Below, piece by piece: positions 27,194 to 35,198 of a stretch of 42,154 nt of DNA (position 1 is the stretch's first letter; each line of letters opens with the position of its first letter). The stretch is from an uncultured Cryomorphaceae bacterium (GTDB lineage Bacteria > Bacteroidota > Bacteroidia > Flavobacteriales > UBA7430): positions 1-42,154 of the forward strand of contig CACDER010000007.1 in NCBI GenBank assembly GCA_902551855.1. Reading direction: 5' to 3'. The position numbers and the translations under genes are program-made. The notes under the pieces are model-generated. The model ran no database searches. It had not been told where the DNA came from and worked only from the letters and a program-made list of their open reading frames with translations.

Positions 27194-28357
27194 ATGAAAA
27201 TTAAAAAATTAATCCTAATTTATACATCACTGATAAATGTAAGCTTGTTTAGTCAATCATTTATAACTAATTCAAAAAATAGTAACTATCAATTTTCTAT
27301 AATAAATAATATTGAAGCAAACAATGTTGATGATCAAGGAAGAACCAGTACATGTTGGAGCTTTTCTGCTTTATCTTTTTTTGAATCTGAAATAATGAGG
27401 ATTAAAGGTGAGAAAATTGAATTATCAGAAATGTTTATTGTGAGAAATACTTTATTAAAAAAAGCTGAAAAATATGTTAGAATGCATGGAAAAATTAATT
27501 TTGGTCCTGGTGGGGCTTTTCATGATGTTATTGATATATTTAAATCTCACGGAATTGTACCTAATTCTGTCTATAACGGTAATCCAAACACGGACTTTCA
27601 ACTAAATCATGCAGAGTTAGATAATCTTTTACTCGCAATGGTTAATTCAATTATAAAAGCAAAACAAAAATCCCTAACACCACTATGGAAAGATGCCTTT
27701 AGTAAAGTACTTGACGTATATCTAGGAGAATTACCAAATACATTTGAATATAATGGTAAAAAATATAATTCAAAATCATTCTTTAATTACCTGAATATCA
27801 ATTCAAGTGATTATGTTTCACTTACTTCATTCACACATCACCCTTATTATGAAAAATTTATAATTGAGGTTCCAGATAATTGGTTGTTAAAATCATCTTA
27901 TAATTTAACATTAAATGAACTAATTGAAACTATGTATTTTTCATTAGAAAATGGATTTTCAATTGCATGGGGTGCTGATGTCTCAGAAAATGGATTTTCA
28001 TTTAAAAATGGATTAGCAATTGTTCCTGACGAAAAAAGTATCTTAGAGTCTGAAAATAATATTCAATCAATTTTTGAATCACCATGTATTGAACTTTCAA
28101 TTACTCCCGAAATCAGACAACTTGGATTTGATAATTATGAAACAACAGACGATCATGGAATGCACATAACAGGTGTAGTAAAAGATCAAAAAAATAATAA
28201 ATACTTTATAGTTAAAAATTCATGGGGAATAACATCCAACGAATGTGATGGTTATTTTTATGCTTCAGAAGAGTATATTAAATATAAAACTATCAATATA
28301 TTACTACATAAAGAGGGTATTCCAAAAAAAATAAAAGAGAAGCTTAAATTAAAATAG
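27194..28357 (+). CDS. secreted C1-family cysteine peptidase (bleomycin hydrolase/PepC-like)
   Basis: This 387-residue protein has a signal peptide (residues 1 to about 21, ending SLFSQ), unlike cytoplasmic PepC. The papain-like catalytic set is complete: Gln48 and Cys54 in DQGRTSTCWSFSA, His321 in DDHGMHITGV, and Asn342 in VKNSWG. FGPGGAFHDVIDIFKSHG and the SFTHHPYYEKFIIEVPDNW region match the bleomycin hydrolase branch. It probably acts as an aminopeptidase on peptides in the periplasm. It starts 4 nt after the transporter gene and its 3' end overlaps the convergent ndk gene by 9 bp. Confidence 0.88.
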   Translation: MKIKKLILIYTSLINVSLFSQSFITNSKNSNYQFSIINNIEANNVDDQGRTSTCWSFSALSFFESEIMRIKGEKIELSEMFIVRNTLLKKAEKYVRMHGKINFGPGGAFHDVIDIFKSHGIVPNSVYNGNPNTDFQLNHAELDNLLLAMVNSIIKAKQKSLTPLWKDAFSKVLDVYLGELPNTFEYNGKKYNSKSFFNYLNINSSDYVSLTSFTHHPYYEKFIIEVPDNWLLKSSYNLTLNELIETMYFSLENGFSIAWGADVSENGFSFKNGLAIVPDEKSILESENNIQSIFESPCIELSITPEIRQLGFDNYETTDDHGMHITGVVKDQKNNKYFIVKNSWGITSNECDGYFYASEEYIKYKTINILLHKEGIPKKIKEKLKLK

Positions 28358-28768
28358 TTCTTTATTAGAAAAATGAAAGTTTATTTCATTGATTGCATTT
28401 TTATCTGAGTCAGATCCATGTATTACATTTTCTGATATTGACTCAGCAAATAAGTTTCTGATTGATCCAGGTCTTGCTAATTTTGGATCTGTAGAGCCTA
28501 TTAATGACCTAAAATCCTCTACTGCATTTTCCTTTTCAAGAGAAATAACAACAACTGGACCTGATGTGATGTAGTTTATCAATTCCTTATAAAATTCACG
28601 TTTCTCATGAATTTTATAAAACAATTTAGCTTCAAAAATAGATAATCTAATCATTTTCATTGAAATAATTTTAAACCCATTGTCACATATAATTTTCAAA
28701 ATTGAACCAATGTGACCTTTTTTTACTCCGTCAGGCTTAATCATTGTAAAAGTTCTGTTTCCTTTCAT
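28349..28768 (-). CDS. ndk: nucleoside diphosphate kinase
   Basis: Ndk, 139 residues, balances nucleoside triphosphate pools by phosphate transfer through a phospho-His. The family pattern is complete: TFTMIKPDGV at the N-terminus, the LARPGSIRNLFAES segment, and the catalytic His117 in NVIHGSDS. Length is normal. It is a single-gene minus-strand unit whose 3' end overlaps the C1 peptidase gene, with a candidate promoter just upstream. Confidence 0.98.
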   Translation of the reverse strand: MKGNRTFTMIKPDGVKKGHIGSILKIICDNGFKIISMKMIRLSIFEAKLFYKIHEKREFYKELINYITSGPVVVISLEKENAVEDFRSLIGSTDPKLARPGSIRNLFAESISENVIHGSDSDKNAINEINFHFSNKELF

Positions 28769-28848: not shown

Positions 28849-29865
28849 ATGATTAAAGTGATAAAAAAAATACATAGACTTCTAAAATCCTCTTCCAAAG
28901 TTATCATTACTACTCATAAAAATCCTGACGGAGATGCAATGGGTTCATCATTGGCTTTAAATTCAATTTTAAATAAAATTGGAATAGATTCTATTATCAT
29001 AATTCCAAATACTTATCCCTCAAATTTGAATTGGATGGATGGGGTAAAAAATGTCGTTAATTATGATTTAGACTCTAAAAACGCTATAAAACTAATTGAT
29101 AATGCTGAATTAATATTTTGTCTTGATTTTAACTCACTCAAAAGAGTTGGAGACATGTCTACATATATTAAAAATTCTAAAGCAAAAACCATTTTGATAG
29201 ACCATCACGAAGATCCAGAACTTATTTTTGATTTTAGTTATTCTTTTCCAAAAATATCTTCTACCTGTCAATTAATATATGAATTTCTGATTGAATTAAA
29301 CTTGATTGAATACATTGACATTAAAATTGCAGAGAATTTATATGCAGGAATAGTGACAGATACAGGCTCTTTTAAATACTCATCTGTTGACATTAGAACC
29401 CATCAGATAGTATCAAATTTGTTATTGATAGGATTAAAACAAGATCAAATTCATAATAAACTTCATAATAATCAAAAGGAAAAAAGATTAAAATTATTAG
29501 GATATGCAATAAATAAAAAACTAAAAATATACTACAATTTTAACACTGCAATTATTGACTTATCTATCAATGAACTAAACATGTTTGATTATGAAAGAGG
29601 AGATACTGATGGAATAATTAATTATGCATTATCAATTGAAAAAATATCTTTAGCAGTTATATTTATTGAAGAAAAAGATAAAATTAAAATTTCATTTAGA
29701 AGTAAGAATGACTTTAAAACAAACATTCTATCAAAAAAATATTTTAATGGTGGTGGACATATTAATGCTTCTGGAGGTATTTACTATGGAAAAATTGAGG
29801 ATGGAATTAAGAAACTAATATCAATACTTCCAAATTATAAGACCGAACTGTCAAAAAACACCTAA
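28849..29865 (+). CDS. DHH-family phosphoesterase (NrnA-like)
   Basis: This 338-residue protein carries the DHH/DHHA1 phosphoesterase signature: the metal ligands THKNPDGDA (residues 22-30), ELIFCLDFNS, the DHH motif (118-120, LIDHHEDPE) and VTDTGSFKY, then a C-terminal DHHA1 segment with NGGGHINASGG. NrnA-type members degrade nanoRNAs, pAp or cyclic-dinucleotide breakdown products in the cytoplasm; which of these applies here cannot be told from sequence. It is divergent from ndk across 80 bp and heads a plus-strand run. Confidence 0.9.
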   Translation: MIKVIKKIHRLLKSSSKVIITTHKNPDGDAMGSSLALNSILNKIGIDSIIIIPNTYPSNLNWMDGVKNVVNYDLDSKNAIKLIDNAELIFCLDFNSLKRVGDMSTYIKNSKAKTILIDHHEDPELIFDFSYSFPKISSTCQLIYEFLIELNLIEYIDIKIAENLYAGIVTDTGSFKYSSVDIRTHQIVSNLLLIGLKQDQIHNKLHNNQKEKRLKLLGYAINKKLKIYYNFNTAIIDLSINELNMFDYERGDTDGIINYALSIEKISLAVIFIEEKDKIKISFRSKNDFKTNILSKKYFNGGGHINASGGIYYGKIEDGIKKLISILPNYKTELSKNT

Positions 29866-29928: not shown

Positions 29929-31005
29929 ATGAAAAACTTTAAAAATTTTATAACATTTCTATTAATAATTATTGTAACCTCTTGTACACCTCAAACTACT
30001 AATATGGAAAATACTAAAAATAGTTTAATTGATCCAACATCAATTAATGATGATGGAATTTTTGCCGAAATTAAAACTAATAAAGGAATAATAAACTTAG
30101 TTCTAGAATTTCAGAGAGCACCACTCACAGTTGCAAATTTTATAACTCTTAGTGAGGGCCTAATTAAAAATAAAATTAAAGACAAAAATGAACCTTTTTA
30201 TAATGGTTTAAAATTTCATAGAGTTATTAAAGATTTTATGATTCAAGGAGGATGTCCTAATGGAAATGGATCTGGAGGACCAGGTTACTCTTTTCCTGAT
30301 GAATTTCATCCTGACTTAAAACATTCTGGTCCAGGAGTCTTATCGATGGCTAATTCTGGTAAAAATACAAATGGTTCTCAATTTTTTATTACACATAAAG
30401 AAACTCCTTGGCTGGATAATAAACACTCAGTTTTCGGGCATGTCTTAAATGAATCTTCTCAAGATATTGTTAATCTTATTGAAACTGACGATCAAATTAT
30501 TTCTGTTAGAATAATTCGAAATGGAAAAATAGCAAAGAAATTTGATGCTTTGGATGTTTTTAATGTAAAAAAAGATGAATTTGAAAAGAAATTAGCTGAA
30601 GAAAAAAAATTAGAGAAAGAAAAATTTGAAAAACAAATTACAGAAATTAAAAATTCATATCCAAATCTAATTTCAACGCAAAGCGGCTTGATGTATCTAA
30701 TTTTAAATGAAGGTAATGGTATAAAACCAAAAAAGTCAGAAACTGTAAGCGTTCATTATACTGGAACTTTAATAGATGGTACTAAATTTGATTCCTCATA
30801 TGATAGAAAAACTCCAATTGAATTTAAGCTTGGTATGGGGCAAGTAATCAAAGGTTGGGACGAAGGCATTGAATTACTTTCAATTGGTGGAAAAGCTAAA
30901 TTATTTATCCCACCAAATCTGGCGTATGGAGAAAGGGGAGCTGGTGGAGTAATACCCCCTAACGCAACCTTAATTTTCGATGTTGAATTAATTGACATAA
31001 AATAA
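29929..31005 (+). CDS. cyclophilin-FKBP dual immunophilin lipoprotein
   Basis: This 358-residue protein joins both families of peptidyl-prolyl cis-trans isomerase. A lipoprotein signal comes first (IIVTSC, Cys19). A cyclophilin domain spans about residues 42-200 with Arg98/Phe103/Gln106 ([13 protein letters not shown]), SQFFITHKE and Trp161/His166 ([12 protein letters not shown]). A charged Lys/Glu helix (about 213-242) links it to an FKBP domain at about 265-358 ([44 protein letters not shown]). Both active sites look intact. It should be membrane-anchored facing the periplasm or outer membrane and assist folding of secreted proteins. It lies 63 nt after the DHH gene. Confidence 0.93.
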
Positions 31006-31044: not shown

Positions 31045-32352
31045 ATGAAAAAATCGTTTATTACTTTATTTTTTTTAATAAAAATTTCCACATATTCATT
31101 TTCTCAAATTTATAATTATGATTCAAAAAAACTTTTATGTGGTCCAATGCTATCTTACATTGATAATTATCATACTCAAATGTGGATGCTTGTTTCAAGC
31201 GATTGTAAAAAAATTAGATTAGAATTAGAAAATTTTGATGAAGAAATAACTAAAATAATTAATTACGATATTACAAAGCCTAATGTTTTAAATAACTCAA
31301 AATGGTATGATTTTTCAATATCAAAATATAATTATGGTAATGAAATTCCAATAACAATTAATTTGGACGAATTAATTCCAGACACTGAATACCATGTTGA
31401 TTTATTCATTGATAATAATTTAATTGTTGATGACATGGAAATTTATACACCAAGAAATTATTTAAACGATATTCATTTTATTCTTGGTCACGATTTAGAT
31501 ATCAATGATGACAATGATAATGGTGATGAAATTTTGGAAGTTATGATTGAAAAAAAATCTGATTTTATGGTCTGGTTGGGAAATAACGTAAATATAACTA
31601 CAAACAATAATTCATTTAAAGAAGTTATTGAAAAATACAAATATATAAGAAAAAGACCTTTAGTTAATCAATTCATGAAATCATTACCCCATATAGCTAT
31701 TTGGGATTATAAAGATTATGGAATCAACACTTCAGATAATAGACAAGCATTTAAAGATTCTTCATTATTAGCATTTAATCTTTTTTGGCCAAATGCTCCA
31801 AAAAAAACCTACAATTACACTTATAACGATTACGGTGTCTACAAAAAGTATGATTATGAAGATATTGAATTATTTTTACTTGATAATAGATTTTTTAAAT
31901 CTTCTATTGAAATAAAAAATCCAAAATTACTAGGGGAAAAACAACTTGCAAGATTTCTAAATGAAATTATGAGCTCAGGTGCAACATTTAAATTTATAAT
32001 TTGTGGAAATAGTTTTCTAACTGAAGGATCAAAAAATAATGGATTTAAAAATTATGAAAATGAATTTAATGAATTTATTGAGAGGTTACATTTATCAAGA
32101 ATTAACGGTGTTATAATAATTACATCAGATACAAAGAAAGCGTCTGTAACAAAGTTACTCAGAGATAATGCATACCCTCTATATCAATTTTCGTTTAATA
32201 GTTTATCAAATGATGGAAAGAATAATGGTGAGTTCGCCAGAATTAAAATTGAAGGTGGATATAATAAAAGAACACTGAAATATGAAGTATTTGATCATAA
32301 CAATAATATCGTTATTAATAAAAATATACATGAATCGGAAATTAAATATTGA
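31045..32352 (+). CDS. secreted PhoD-like protein, probable pseudoenzyme
   Basis: This 435-residue protein has a signal peptide (ending SFSQ). An N-terminal Fn3-like domain (GPMLSYID, then LIPDTEYHVDLFID) and a metallophosphatase domain follow the PhoD alkaline phosphatase/phosphodiesterase D layout. The scaffold is recognisable (DFMVWLG, AIWDYKDYGINTSDNR, LGEKQLARFLNEI, ATFKFIICG), but the metal-site motifs are altered. WLGDN is WLGNN (Asn180), WDDHDYG is WDYKDYG (Tyr222, Lys223), and the late GDRHH is SDTKK (361-365). Family knowledge says these residues bind metals, so catalysis is unlikely. The frame is intact with no stop. It is followed 14 nt later by the T9SS propeller protein gene. 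Confidence 0.75.
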   Translation: MKKSFITLFFLIKISTYSFSQIYNYDSKKLLCGPMLSYIDNYHTQMWMLVSSDCKKIRLELENFDEEITKIINYDITKPNVLNNSKWYDFSISKYNYGNEIPITINLDELIPDTEYHVDLFIDNNLIVDDMEIYTPRNYLNDIHFILGHDLDINDDNDNGDEILEVMIEKKSDFMVWLGNNVNITTNNNSFKEVIEKYKYIRKRPLVNQFMKSLPHIAIWDYKDYGINTSDNRQAFKDSSLLAFNLFWPNAPKKTYNYTYNDYGVYKKYDYEDIELFLLDNRFFKSSIEIKNPKLLGEKQLARFLNEIMSSGATFKFIICGNSFLTEGSKNNGFKNYENEFNEFIERLHLSRINGVIIITSDTKKASVTKLLRDNAYPLYQFSFNSLSNDGKNNGEFARIKIEGGYNKRTLKYEVFDHNNNIVINKNIHESEIKY

Positions 32353-32366
32353 TTGAATTTAAGCGT

Positions 32367-35198
32367 ATGACATTTAAAACAAACAAAAATTTAATTTTAC
32401 TAGTAATCTCAACCTTATTCATGATATTTTACTTAAATAAAAAAATTGAAAAATTAAATCTTGAAAAAAATATCAAAATTGCATTAGATAAGAAGAAACT
32501 CAAAAGAAAAATTCGATATGGAGGTGCACTTGGTATTGGATTAACTAATTCTCAAAATAATCAAGCTAGCTGGTATTTCAAAAGACTTTTAAATCCAATA
32601 ACTAGAAAAATTCCAACTAATATAAGATCAAGAGAATTAAAATTTTCAGAATCTATTCCTAAAAATAAAACTATTAATTCTGATTGGATCGAAAGGGGGC
32701 CTTTCAATGTGGGGGGGAGAACAAGAGCAATAGCTATTGATGTAAATAATGAAAATATTATTATGGCAGGTGGAGTGTCTGGAGGAATTTTTAGATCAGA
32801 AAATCAAGGTCAAACATGGGAGAAAATTACCAGTTCTCAAATGTTACACAGTGTAACTACATTAAAACAGGATACAAGAGTTGGAAAAACAAATATATGG
32901 TATTATGGAACAGGAGAAGGTAGAGGTAATAGTGCCTCTGGAAATCCCAGCTATATATATGCTGGGGCATACTTTTATGGTAATGGATTATATAAATCCA
33001 CTGATAATGGTCTTACTTGGAATTCTGTTTCGTCTACTGCCTCCAATACGCCAGTAGTTTTTGATATGCTGTGGGATATAATTTGGGACTTTGAAATAAA
33101 TACATCTAAAGATTCAATCGATGAAATTTATACTGCTACATGTGGAGCAATATTCAAAAGCTCTGATGGAGGTTTAAATTGGAATCTTGAATTAGGGTCA
33201 AATTCAAACCCTTCACTATATACTGAGATTGAAATTTCAAATCATGGTGTTATTTATGCAGCATTAAGTAGTGATGGAGATGATAAAGGAATTTGGAGAA
33301 GTGAAGATGGTAATACCTGGCAAAATATTTTACCTAGTAATTGGCCTGCAAACTATGACAGAATCAAAATATCGATCAACCCTAATAATGAAAATGAAGT
33401 ATATTTTCTAGCTGTTACCCCTGATTTTGGACAAGAAAATTTAGATTTTTATGAAGAAAGTGAATGGTGTAGCCTTTGGAAATATACGTTTATTGACGGT
33501 GACTCATTATTTGAAAATGGAATATGGGAAGATAAATCAAATTTCATTCCTCATGGATACGAAAGTGTTTTTGATAATTTTTATGCTCAAGGGGGATATG
33601 ATCTTTCGCTAAATGTTAGCCCATTTGACGAAAATCATATTTTTATCGGAGGAACAAATTTATATGTTTCAACTGATGGATTCAGTAGTTTAGATAACAT
33701 AAACCAAATTGGAGGATATAAAAAAGGAACAAATTTTCCAGATTTCCAAATATGGGAAAATCACCATCCAGATCAACATGAGGTTATCTTTATACCATCT
33801 AAACCAAATTCAATTTTAAGTGCAAATGACGGAGGTGTCTATCTAACAAATAATTATTTAAATTCTGATGTTAGTTGGATTTCTTTAAATAATGGGTACA
33901 ATACAACTCAATTATATACTGTAACAATAAATGAAAAACAACCTACTAATACTATTATAGGAGGATTTCAGGATAATGGGAATTTCTTCACCAACTCTAC
34001 TGACCCAAATGCTAATTGGGTTATGCCTTTAAATGGAGATGGTTCATTCAATCACTTGTCTTTAAATGAGGATTATAACTATATTTCTAAACAAAATGGA
34101 AAGGTTTATAAATTAAAAATGGATGAGAATGGTAACAGACTTCAACTAGCTAAAATTGATCCTGACACTTCAACTACACTTGGAGAAAATTCTTTAGATG
34201 TAAATTTTATTCACCCATATGTAGTTGATCATACTGATAATGTGATGTATTTTCCTGATGGCTCAAAAATTTGGAGAAATTCAAATCTAGATGATATTGA
34301 ATTAACAAATCAATGGGATACACTAAATAATGGTTGGGAAGAAGCTATAGATTTAAATCTTAGTAATACAGATATTACTGCTATTAGCATATCCAAAACC
34401 AACCCCCTAAATAGACTTTATGTTGGAACTGATGATAGAAAAGTTTTTAGAATTGATAATTCTCACTTAAATAATCCAATAATTAGAGATATTACTCTTT
34501 ATTATGGTCCAGGTATGGTAAATGGCGATTTCTTTCATGGTAATTCCTATGTAAATAATATAGCAATTCATCCAAAAGATGCAGATGTTGCAATGGTAGT
34601 ATTTTCAAATTATGAAGTTTATAGTTTATATTATACAACAAATGGAGGTAATAATTGGATAAAAGCAAGTGGAAATCTCGAGGAACAACCAAATGGCTTT
34701 GGAAGTGGACCTTCATGTAGATGGGTTTCAATAATGCCATTTAATGATGATACACTATATTTTGCTGCAACTAGTACTGGTTTATATGCTACTGATTTAA
34801 TAAATGGTGATTCAACTATTTGGTCTCAAATGGGTTATAACTCGATTGGAAACGTAGTTTGTGAACAAGTAAAAACTAGAGAAGAAGATAGTTTAATTGT
34901 TCTTGCTACTCATGGGAATGGAATTTATACAACAAAAATAAATAGTATAGAAAATTTTTTAAATATAGAATTTAATAATTCAACAGATATCAGTATATAT
35001 CCTAATCCAGCCAATGATATAATTAATGTATCAACAAACAAAATTGGTGAAAATATTAATATATTTGATATCAGAGGAAAAATAATTTCCTCAAATAAAA
35101 TCAATAACTACAATACAGTAATTAACATATCATCATTTCCTAGAGGAATTTATTTTATAGATATTAACGGAAATTCAAAAAAATTCATCAAAAACTAA
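32367..35198 (+). CDS. T9SS-exported sortilin-like (VPS10/BNR) beta-propeller protein
   Basis: I start at the ATG at 32367 (943 residues). An upstream in-frame TTG at 32349 overlaps the previous stop and adds only six residues. An N-terminal hydrophobic segment (LILLVISTLFMIFYL) is the export signal. The body has many Asp-box/BNR-type repeats, for example GIFRSENQGQTW, GLYKSTDNGLTW, IFKSSDGGLNW, IWRSEDGNTW and YYTTNGGNNWI, giving a VPS10/sortilin-like propeller. The C-terminal 75 residues or so are a type A T9SS sorting domain (ISIYPNPANDIINVS, then FDIRGKII and SSFPRGIYFIDI). It should be released or anchored at the cell surface. The ligand is unknown. It ends one base from the convergent prfC. 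Confidence 0.85.
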   Translation: MTFKTNKNLILLVISTLFMIFYLNKKIEKLNLEKNIKIALDKKKLKRKIRYGGALGIGLTNSQNNQASWYFKRLLNPITRKIPTNIRSRELKFSESIPKNKTINSDWIERGPFNVGGRTRAIAIDVNNENIIMAGGVSGGIFRSENQGQTWEKITSSQMLHSVTTLKQDTRVGKTNIWYYGTGEGRGNSASGNPSYIYAGAYFYGNGLYKSTDNGLTWNSVSSTASNTPVVFDMLWDIIWDFEINTSKDSIDEIYTATCGAIFKSSDGGLNWNLELGSNSNPSLYTEIEISNHGVIYAALSSDGDDKGIWRSEDGNTWQNILPSNWPANYDRIKISINPNNENEVYFLAVTPDFGQENLDFYEESEWCSLWKYTFIDGDSLFENGIWEDKSNFIPHGYESVFDNFYAQGGYDLSLNVSPFDENHIFIGGTNLYVSTDGFSSLDNINQIGGYKKGTNFPDFQIWENHHPDQHEVIFIPSKPNSILSANDGGVYLTNNYLNSDVSWISLNNGYNTTQLYTVTINEKQPTNTIIGGFQDNGNFFTNSTDPNANWVMPLNGDGSFNHLSLNEDYNYISKQNGKVYKLKMDENGNRLQLAKIDPDTSTTLGENSLDVNFIHPYVVDHTDNVMYFPDGSKIWRNSNLDDIELTNQWDTLNNGWEEAIDLNLSNTDITAISISKTNPLNRLYVGTDDRKVFRIDNSHLNNPIIRDITLYYGPGMVNGDFFHGNSYVNNIAIHPKDADVAMVVFSNYEVYSLYYTTNGGNNWIKASGNLEEQPNGFGSGPSCRWVSIMPFNDDTLYFAATSTGLYATDLINGDSTIWSQMGYNSIGNVVCEQVKTREEDSLIVLATHGNGIYTTKINSIENFLNIEFNNSTDISIYPNPANDIINVSTNKIGENINIFDIRGKIISSNKINNYNTVINISSFPRGIYFIDINGNSKKFIKN

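Follow-up and report, generated by a model that had tools for sequence, protein, structure and literature searches.

A secreted PhoD-fold protein of Flavobacteriales without a usable Fe/Ca site, probably a maintained pseudoenzyme with a binding or scaffold role

The window (the whole 42,154-nucleotide stretch of DNA that was analysed) encodes a secreted PhoD-fold protein that is old and conserved, has no usable Fe/Ca site and belongs to a clade in which sequence constraint has moved to a new loop. We consider it probable, at roughly 60%, that this is an old PhoD pseudoenzyme under purifying selection that serves the biogenesis of envelope proteins by binding a partner or acting as a scaffold. 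Gene order and the shifted constraint point to partner binding and to a link with envelope protein folding. The 'binding or structural role' proposed in an earlier sequence-only reading would thereby be narrowed to the binding of a partner linked to envelope foldases.

The gene and the N-terminal features of its product were placed as follows.

31045..32352, + strand: PhoD-fold pseudoenzyme gene, 435 aa (open reading frame, Pfam match, structure model and fold search)
31045..31104, + strand: Sec signal peptide, residues 1-20 (sequence; the next residue is Gln21)
31126..31449, + strand: N-terminal beta domain, DUF7800-like / Fn3-like, residues 28-135 (domain matches and modelled strands)

The reading frame at 31045-32352 runs without interruption and opens with the Sec signal peptide, as the sequence-only reading had stated. 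Gln21 is near-invariant in 43 homologues; in Bacteroidota the residue that follows a cleaved signal peptide is usually Gln. Comparison with Pfam PhoD (PF09423) gave 34.7 bits (E = 1.4e-8) against a cut-off of 27, which places the protein in the PhoD family by sequence, and 16 of the 17 members of its clade matched the same model (E up to 1). DUF7800 was matched by 13 of the 17 (best 1.5e-4), with a value of 0.016 for the N-terminal domain of the window protein. A phmmer search of the PDB with the lone window sequence returned chance matches only, and B. subtilis PhoD (2YEQ) was reached by sequence only via a profile built from active homologues. Structure modelling, suggested earlier as a check, recovered a PhoD-like fold (AlphaFold2 with 43 homologues; pTM 0.85, mean pLDDT 84). 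In the fold search 2YEQ ranked first among PDB entries (VIA Z 29.8 over 375 aligned residues), and a Z of 28.6 was obtained for kidney bean purple acid phosphatase; model and fold search together indicate the two-domain fold of PhoD and purple acid phosphatases. The motifs also occur in the same order as in PhoD, in agreement with the claim that the fold-level motifs are kept.

The metal site of B. subtilis PhoD (BsPhoD) holds one Fe3+ and two Ca2+ ions; substituting C180, D265, N271, N272 or D436 singly abolishes the enzyme's activity, and substituting D207 or D266 strongly reduces it (PMC4223295). When the profile of active Bacteroidota homologues was aligned to 2YEQ, the BsPhoD ligands fell on window residues 150, 180, 221, 222, 228/229 and 362, and the alignment placed the iron Tyr and His at 183 and 364. 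The sequence at these sites, read from the alignment to 2YEQ and homologues, is listed here.

31492..31494, + strand: Asp150 at the iron-Cys position (BsPhoD Cys180)
31582..31593, + strand: N180 N181 V182 N183, with the Asp207 ligand replaced by Asn and the iron Tyr by Asn
31705..31713, + strand: D221 Y222 K223 instead of D-D-H (Asp265, Asp266, His)
31726..31731, + strand: N228 T229 at the CaB Asn pair (Asn271/272; register uncertain by one residue)
32125..32139, + strand: S361 D362 T363 K364 K365 instead of G-D-R-H-H, with the Asp kept and the iron His gone

The nine ligand columns of the window protein thus read D150, N180, N183, D221, Y222, N228, T229, D362 and K364. The Fe3+ site, composed of Cys or Asp, Asp, Tyr and His, is represented by D150, N180, N183 and K364; the Ca site, composed of Asp-Asp and the Asn pair, is represented by D221 Y222 and N228 T229, where BsPhoD has ENN and Bacteroidota GPND and a one-residue shift of the alignment is possible. 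Neither set is intact. Non-ligand residues occupy five of the nine columns, which upholds the loss of the metal site claimed earlier, but the loss is partial in this member, with ligand-type residues kept at three columns (Asp221, Asn228 and Asp362). The substitutions WLGNN (Asn180), WDYKDYG (Tyr222/Lys223) and SDTKK (361-365) are present exactly as first described. Three further changes had been missed: the iron Cys (GSC) to Asp150, the iron Tyr to Asn183 and a Ca-site position to Thr229. Among the residues critical for BsPhoD activity, the equivalents of C180, D207 and D266 are changed, as are the iron Tyr and His. The window protein therefore resembles the B. subtilis alkaline phosphatase/phosphodiesterase in its whole two-domain fold, secretion and motif order, but in it three Fe ligands (Cys, Tyr and His), two Asp and one Ca-site residue are replaced and a loop insertion is present; judged from these residues, PhoD-type catalysis would not be expected.

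To place the gene among its relatives, homologues were drawn from 12 genomes of its own family, 296 plus 396 of its order and 395 of its class. Matches to the clade profile (E <= 1e-55) were found in 20 genomes from exactly three Flavobacteriales families, code-named f1 (that of the window; 10/12 genomes), f7 (8/12) and f14 (2/2), or 20/26 in total. Completeness is 59% and 62% for the two f1 genomes in which none was found. The profile search did not find the gene in one f7 genome of 95% completeness, so it is not essential everywhere. Viral contigs held no relative of the protein, a scan of genome contigs gave two loci only, and a search of the window's own genome (assembly about 80% complete) found no second, active PhoD. 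Two named MAG records and the small AT-rich genomes suggest that the lineages are marine.

The 17 members formed a single clade with 100/100 support in a tree built without the ligand motifs and the new loop, and with 100/99 support in another tree. The ligand set is broken in 17/17 complete relatives of the clade, and the same kind of loss in all three families answers the earlier question of whether the substitutions are fixed in a clade. In contrast, active-type homologues are invariant at the nine columns except for a conservative N/D exchange at 228-229, which excludes chance. The loss is seen both in the 97% identical copy of genome G001 and in relatives of 55-32% identity; a sequencing error or a peculiarity of this one genome is thus excluded. 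The Cys is gone in all members and, by the alignment used, so is the iron His: locus L023 (f14) has a His in that column, but within an unrelated MNSHGN motif. The D207 equivalent is still present in L021 (f7) and L023, and the loss was therefore stepwise. The nearest sequence homologues of the window protein are active Bacteroidota DUF7800-PhoD proteins (e.g. L029 and L083), which share its length, N-terminal domain and signal peptide but have intact ligands, unrelated gene surroundings and no insertion of this kind. One exception on the active side, outside the clade, is L108 (genome G649, family f20), a separate partial loss in which D207 is Asn, DDH is DDS and GDRHH is GDRQH.

Selection was assessed as dN/dS by NG86, with values at dS > 1 taken as rough only. 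The window gene compared with that of G001 gave 0.099 (neighbour genes 0.08-0.14), three species of genus g5 gave 0.027-0.039 (neighbour genes 0.015-0.054) and two further f1 pairs gave 0.065-0.066. Across f1, dN/dS was thus about 0.03-0.10 and similar to that of the neighbours, as purifying selection predicts. Selection is weaker in f7, where the pair G017/G064 gave 0.28 compared with 0.13 for the neighbouring isomerase. All complete relatives have open frames, and 42 residues are invariant over the whole clade.

Site rates, estimated separately for 52 active homologues and the 17 clade members, revealed a shift of constraint. The mean rate percentile of the nine ligand columns rose from 0.065 in the active set to 0.69 in the clade, compared with 0.33 in the clade for the 60 other slowest active-set columns (Mann-Whitney p = 0.0014, indicative only because sites are not independent draws). 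Newly invariant in the clade are K254, Y256, N257, Y258, E115, D40 and D142, and the first four form a K-x-Y-N-Y motif in or beside a clade-specific four-residue insertion that has no counterpart in active homologues.

31786..31863, + strand: new conserved segment, residues 248-273, W-P-N-A-P-K-K-T-Y-N-Y-T... (alignment, site rates and two models)

In both monomer models part of this loop has pLDDT < 50 (residues 258-261 in one, 254-260 in the other, which is also low at residues 80-95). A loop that is invariant yet not ordered alone is what would be expected of a partner-binding loop, although the low confidence in these models may have other causes. The gene combines lost catalytic residues with an open frame, fixation of the loss throughout a clade and purifying selection, and its constraint has moved to new positions; the description of a maintained pseudoenzyme rather than a decaying gene fits these results.

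An alternative is that a small ligand (a phosphoester, glycan or lipid head group) occupies the remodelled pocket without being hydrolysed, which would make the protein a sensor or carrier instead of a protein scaffold. In f1 conserved polar residues make up the rebuilt pocket (H149, N180, N181, D224, T229, D280, D362 and T363), H149 and N181 being retained beside the altered columns, so a polar pocket of some kind persists in that family; the invariant loop is also Tyr-rich, like sugar-binding sites. However, over the clade as a whole the former ligand positions change at an above-average rate, and in f7 they are occupied by Gly or Ser or fall in gaps, making a common pocket ligand unlikely, and we regard this reading as improbable. 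Continued hydrolysis by other metals or by a metal-free mechanism is more doubtful still. Three ligand-type residues are left, and one PhoD subfamily with Asp at the Cys position exists (PMC4223295); but relatives carry Asn, Gly, Ser or Gln at residue 150, so the Asp there is not conserved in the clade, and the equivalents of D207 and H438 are gone in every f1 member. A search of the alignment and site rates for an alternative His/Asp/Cys ligand set conserved across the clade found none, which makes it unlikely that other residues supply the ligands, a possibility named earlier as grounds for refutation. Relaxed selection on a decaying gene awaiting loss, which would suit the genomes without the gene and the faster evolution in f7, is largely refuted by the open frames, the dN/dS in f1, and the old and new invariant residues of a fully supported three-family clade. 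A broken copy in genome G004 was rejected as a sign of decay, since the genes beside it in that assembly are disrupted likewise. Frameshifts or stops interrupt most genes at this locus (L069, G004:C4:60000-76000) and suggest a noisy long-read assembly.

The preferred reading, a maintained pseudoenzyme that binds a partner, has parallels among non-catalytic proteins of the same superfamily. GAP50 of Plasmodium (3TGH) and Vps29 have metallophosphatase folds, are used mainly as anchor or scaffold, and both turned up in the fold search of the window protein. The parallel is one of analogy: they come from unrelated lineages and have different partners, and GAP50 resembles purple acid phosphatase, not PhoD. 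Searches of the literature turned up neither a PhoD pseudoenzyme nor any description of such a PhoD branch.

The gene neighbourhood suggests a link to envelope protein folding.

28349..28768, - strand: nucleoside-diphosphate kinase (ndk), conserved neighbour (gene order and family models)
28849..29865, + strand: NrnA-like DHH phosphoesterase, conserved neighbour (gene order and family models)
29929..31005, + strand: cyclophilin + FKBP dual peptidyl-prolyl isomerase, conserved neighbour, 39 bp upstream (domain search and gene order)
32367..35198, + strand: protein with BNR repeats and a T9SS type A sorting domain, 14 bp downstream (open reading frame and domain search); an alternative TTG start at 32349 overlaps the pseudoenzyme gene

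One or two isomerase genes lie immediately upstream of the pseudoenzyme gene in the f1 genera g1, g2, g3 and g5, in f7 and in the f14 genome G035. In those lineages the isomerase genes are preceded by the NrnA-like DHH gene and the divergent ndk, with some contigs showing the order only partly and ndk not seen at the G035 locus. In genus g4 and in genome G024 the gene is relocated yet retained. We rejected the idea that the protein works through the BNR/T9SS product encoded downstream, as that gene is adjacent only in genera g1 and g3. The small isomerases of f7 and f14 have GldI as best NCBIfam match (63-84 bits, below the cut-off of 157.6), and the large ones fuse cyclophilin to FKBP and score below the BamJ threshold. 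The isomerase encoded in the window reached 92.5 bits with the BamJ model, whose cut-off is 100, and is a possible BAM surface isomerase of this lineage. The window's own genome encodes SprA (2542 bits), and hence a T9SS. In F. johnsoniae, GldI is needed for gliding and for GldJ/GldK stability (PMC9127263), a review places dual isomerases at the same locus (PMC6316441), and surface isomerases are part of Bacteroidota BAM complexes (PMC12611786, PMC12578637). The word 'phosphatase' does not occur in the main text of these two BAM structure papers. The conserved gene order may also reflect co-expression without contact.

A scenario that would accommodate these observations begins with a PhoD phosphatase gene in the ancestor of the three marine families, which would have come to adjoin genes for envelope peptidyl-prolyl isomerases. 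Its descendant lost the Fe3+/Ca2+ site and gained the Lys-x-Tyr-Asn-Tyr insertion, which became invariant; these two steps are shown by the comparisons above. The protein would most likely bind a partner through the new loop and the N-terminal beta domain, and may serve, together with GldI/BamJ-like isomerases, as a scaffold or accessory factor that helps outer-membrane and surface proteins to fold or assemble. More tentatively, this clade-specific, metal-free pseudoenzyme could be an accessory subunit of the outer-membrane assembly or gliding/secretion machinery that works with those isomerases via the K-x-Y-N-Y loop. The short new motif is open to mutational testing.

Surveys of sea and soil count PhoD genes to gauge phosphorus acquisition, and a whole branch that exceeds the Pfam cut-off but has no metal site would be miscounted in them. 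The branch would also represent a case in which an iron- and calcium-dependent secreted phosphatase became a conserved non-enzyme in lineages with 1-3 Mb genomes. Three f1 genomes (G010, G009 and G011) carry, besides the clade gene, a distant PhoD lipoprotein with intact ligands (L014, L015 and L016). Its dS between species is 0.34-0.53 compared with 0.9-2.2 for other genes, which suggests recent horizontal spread.
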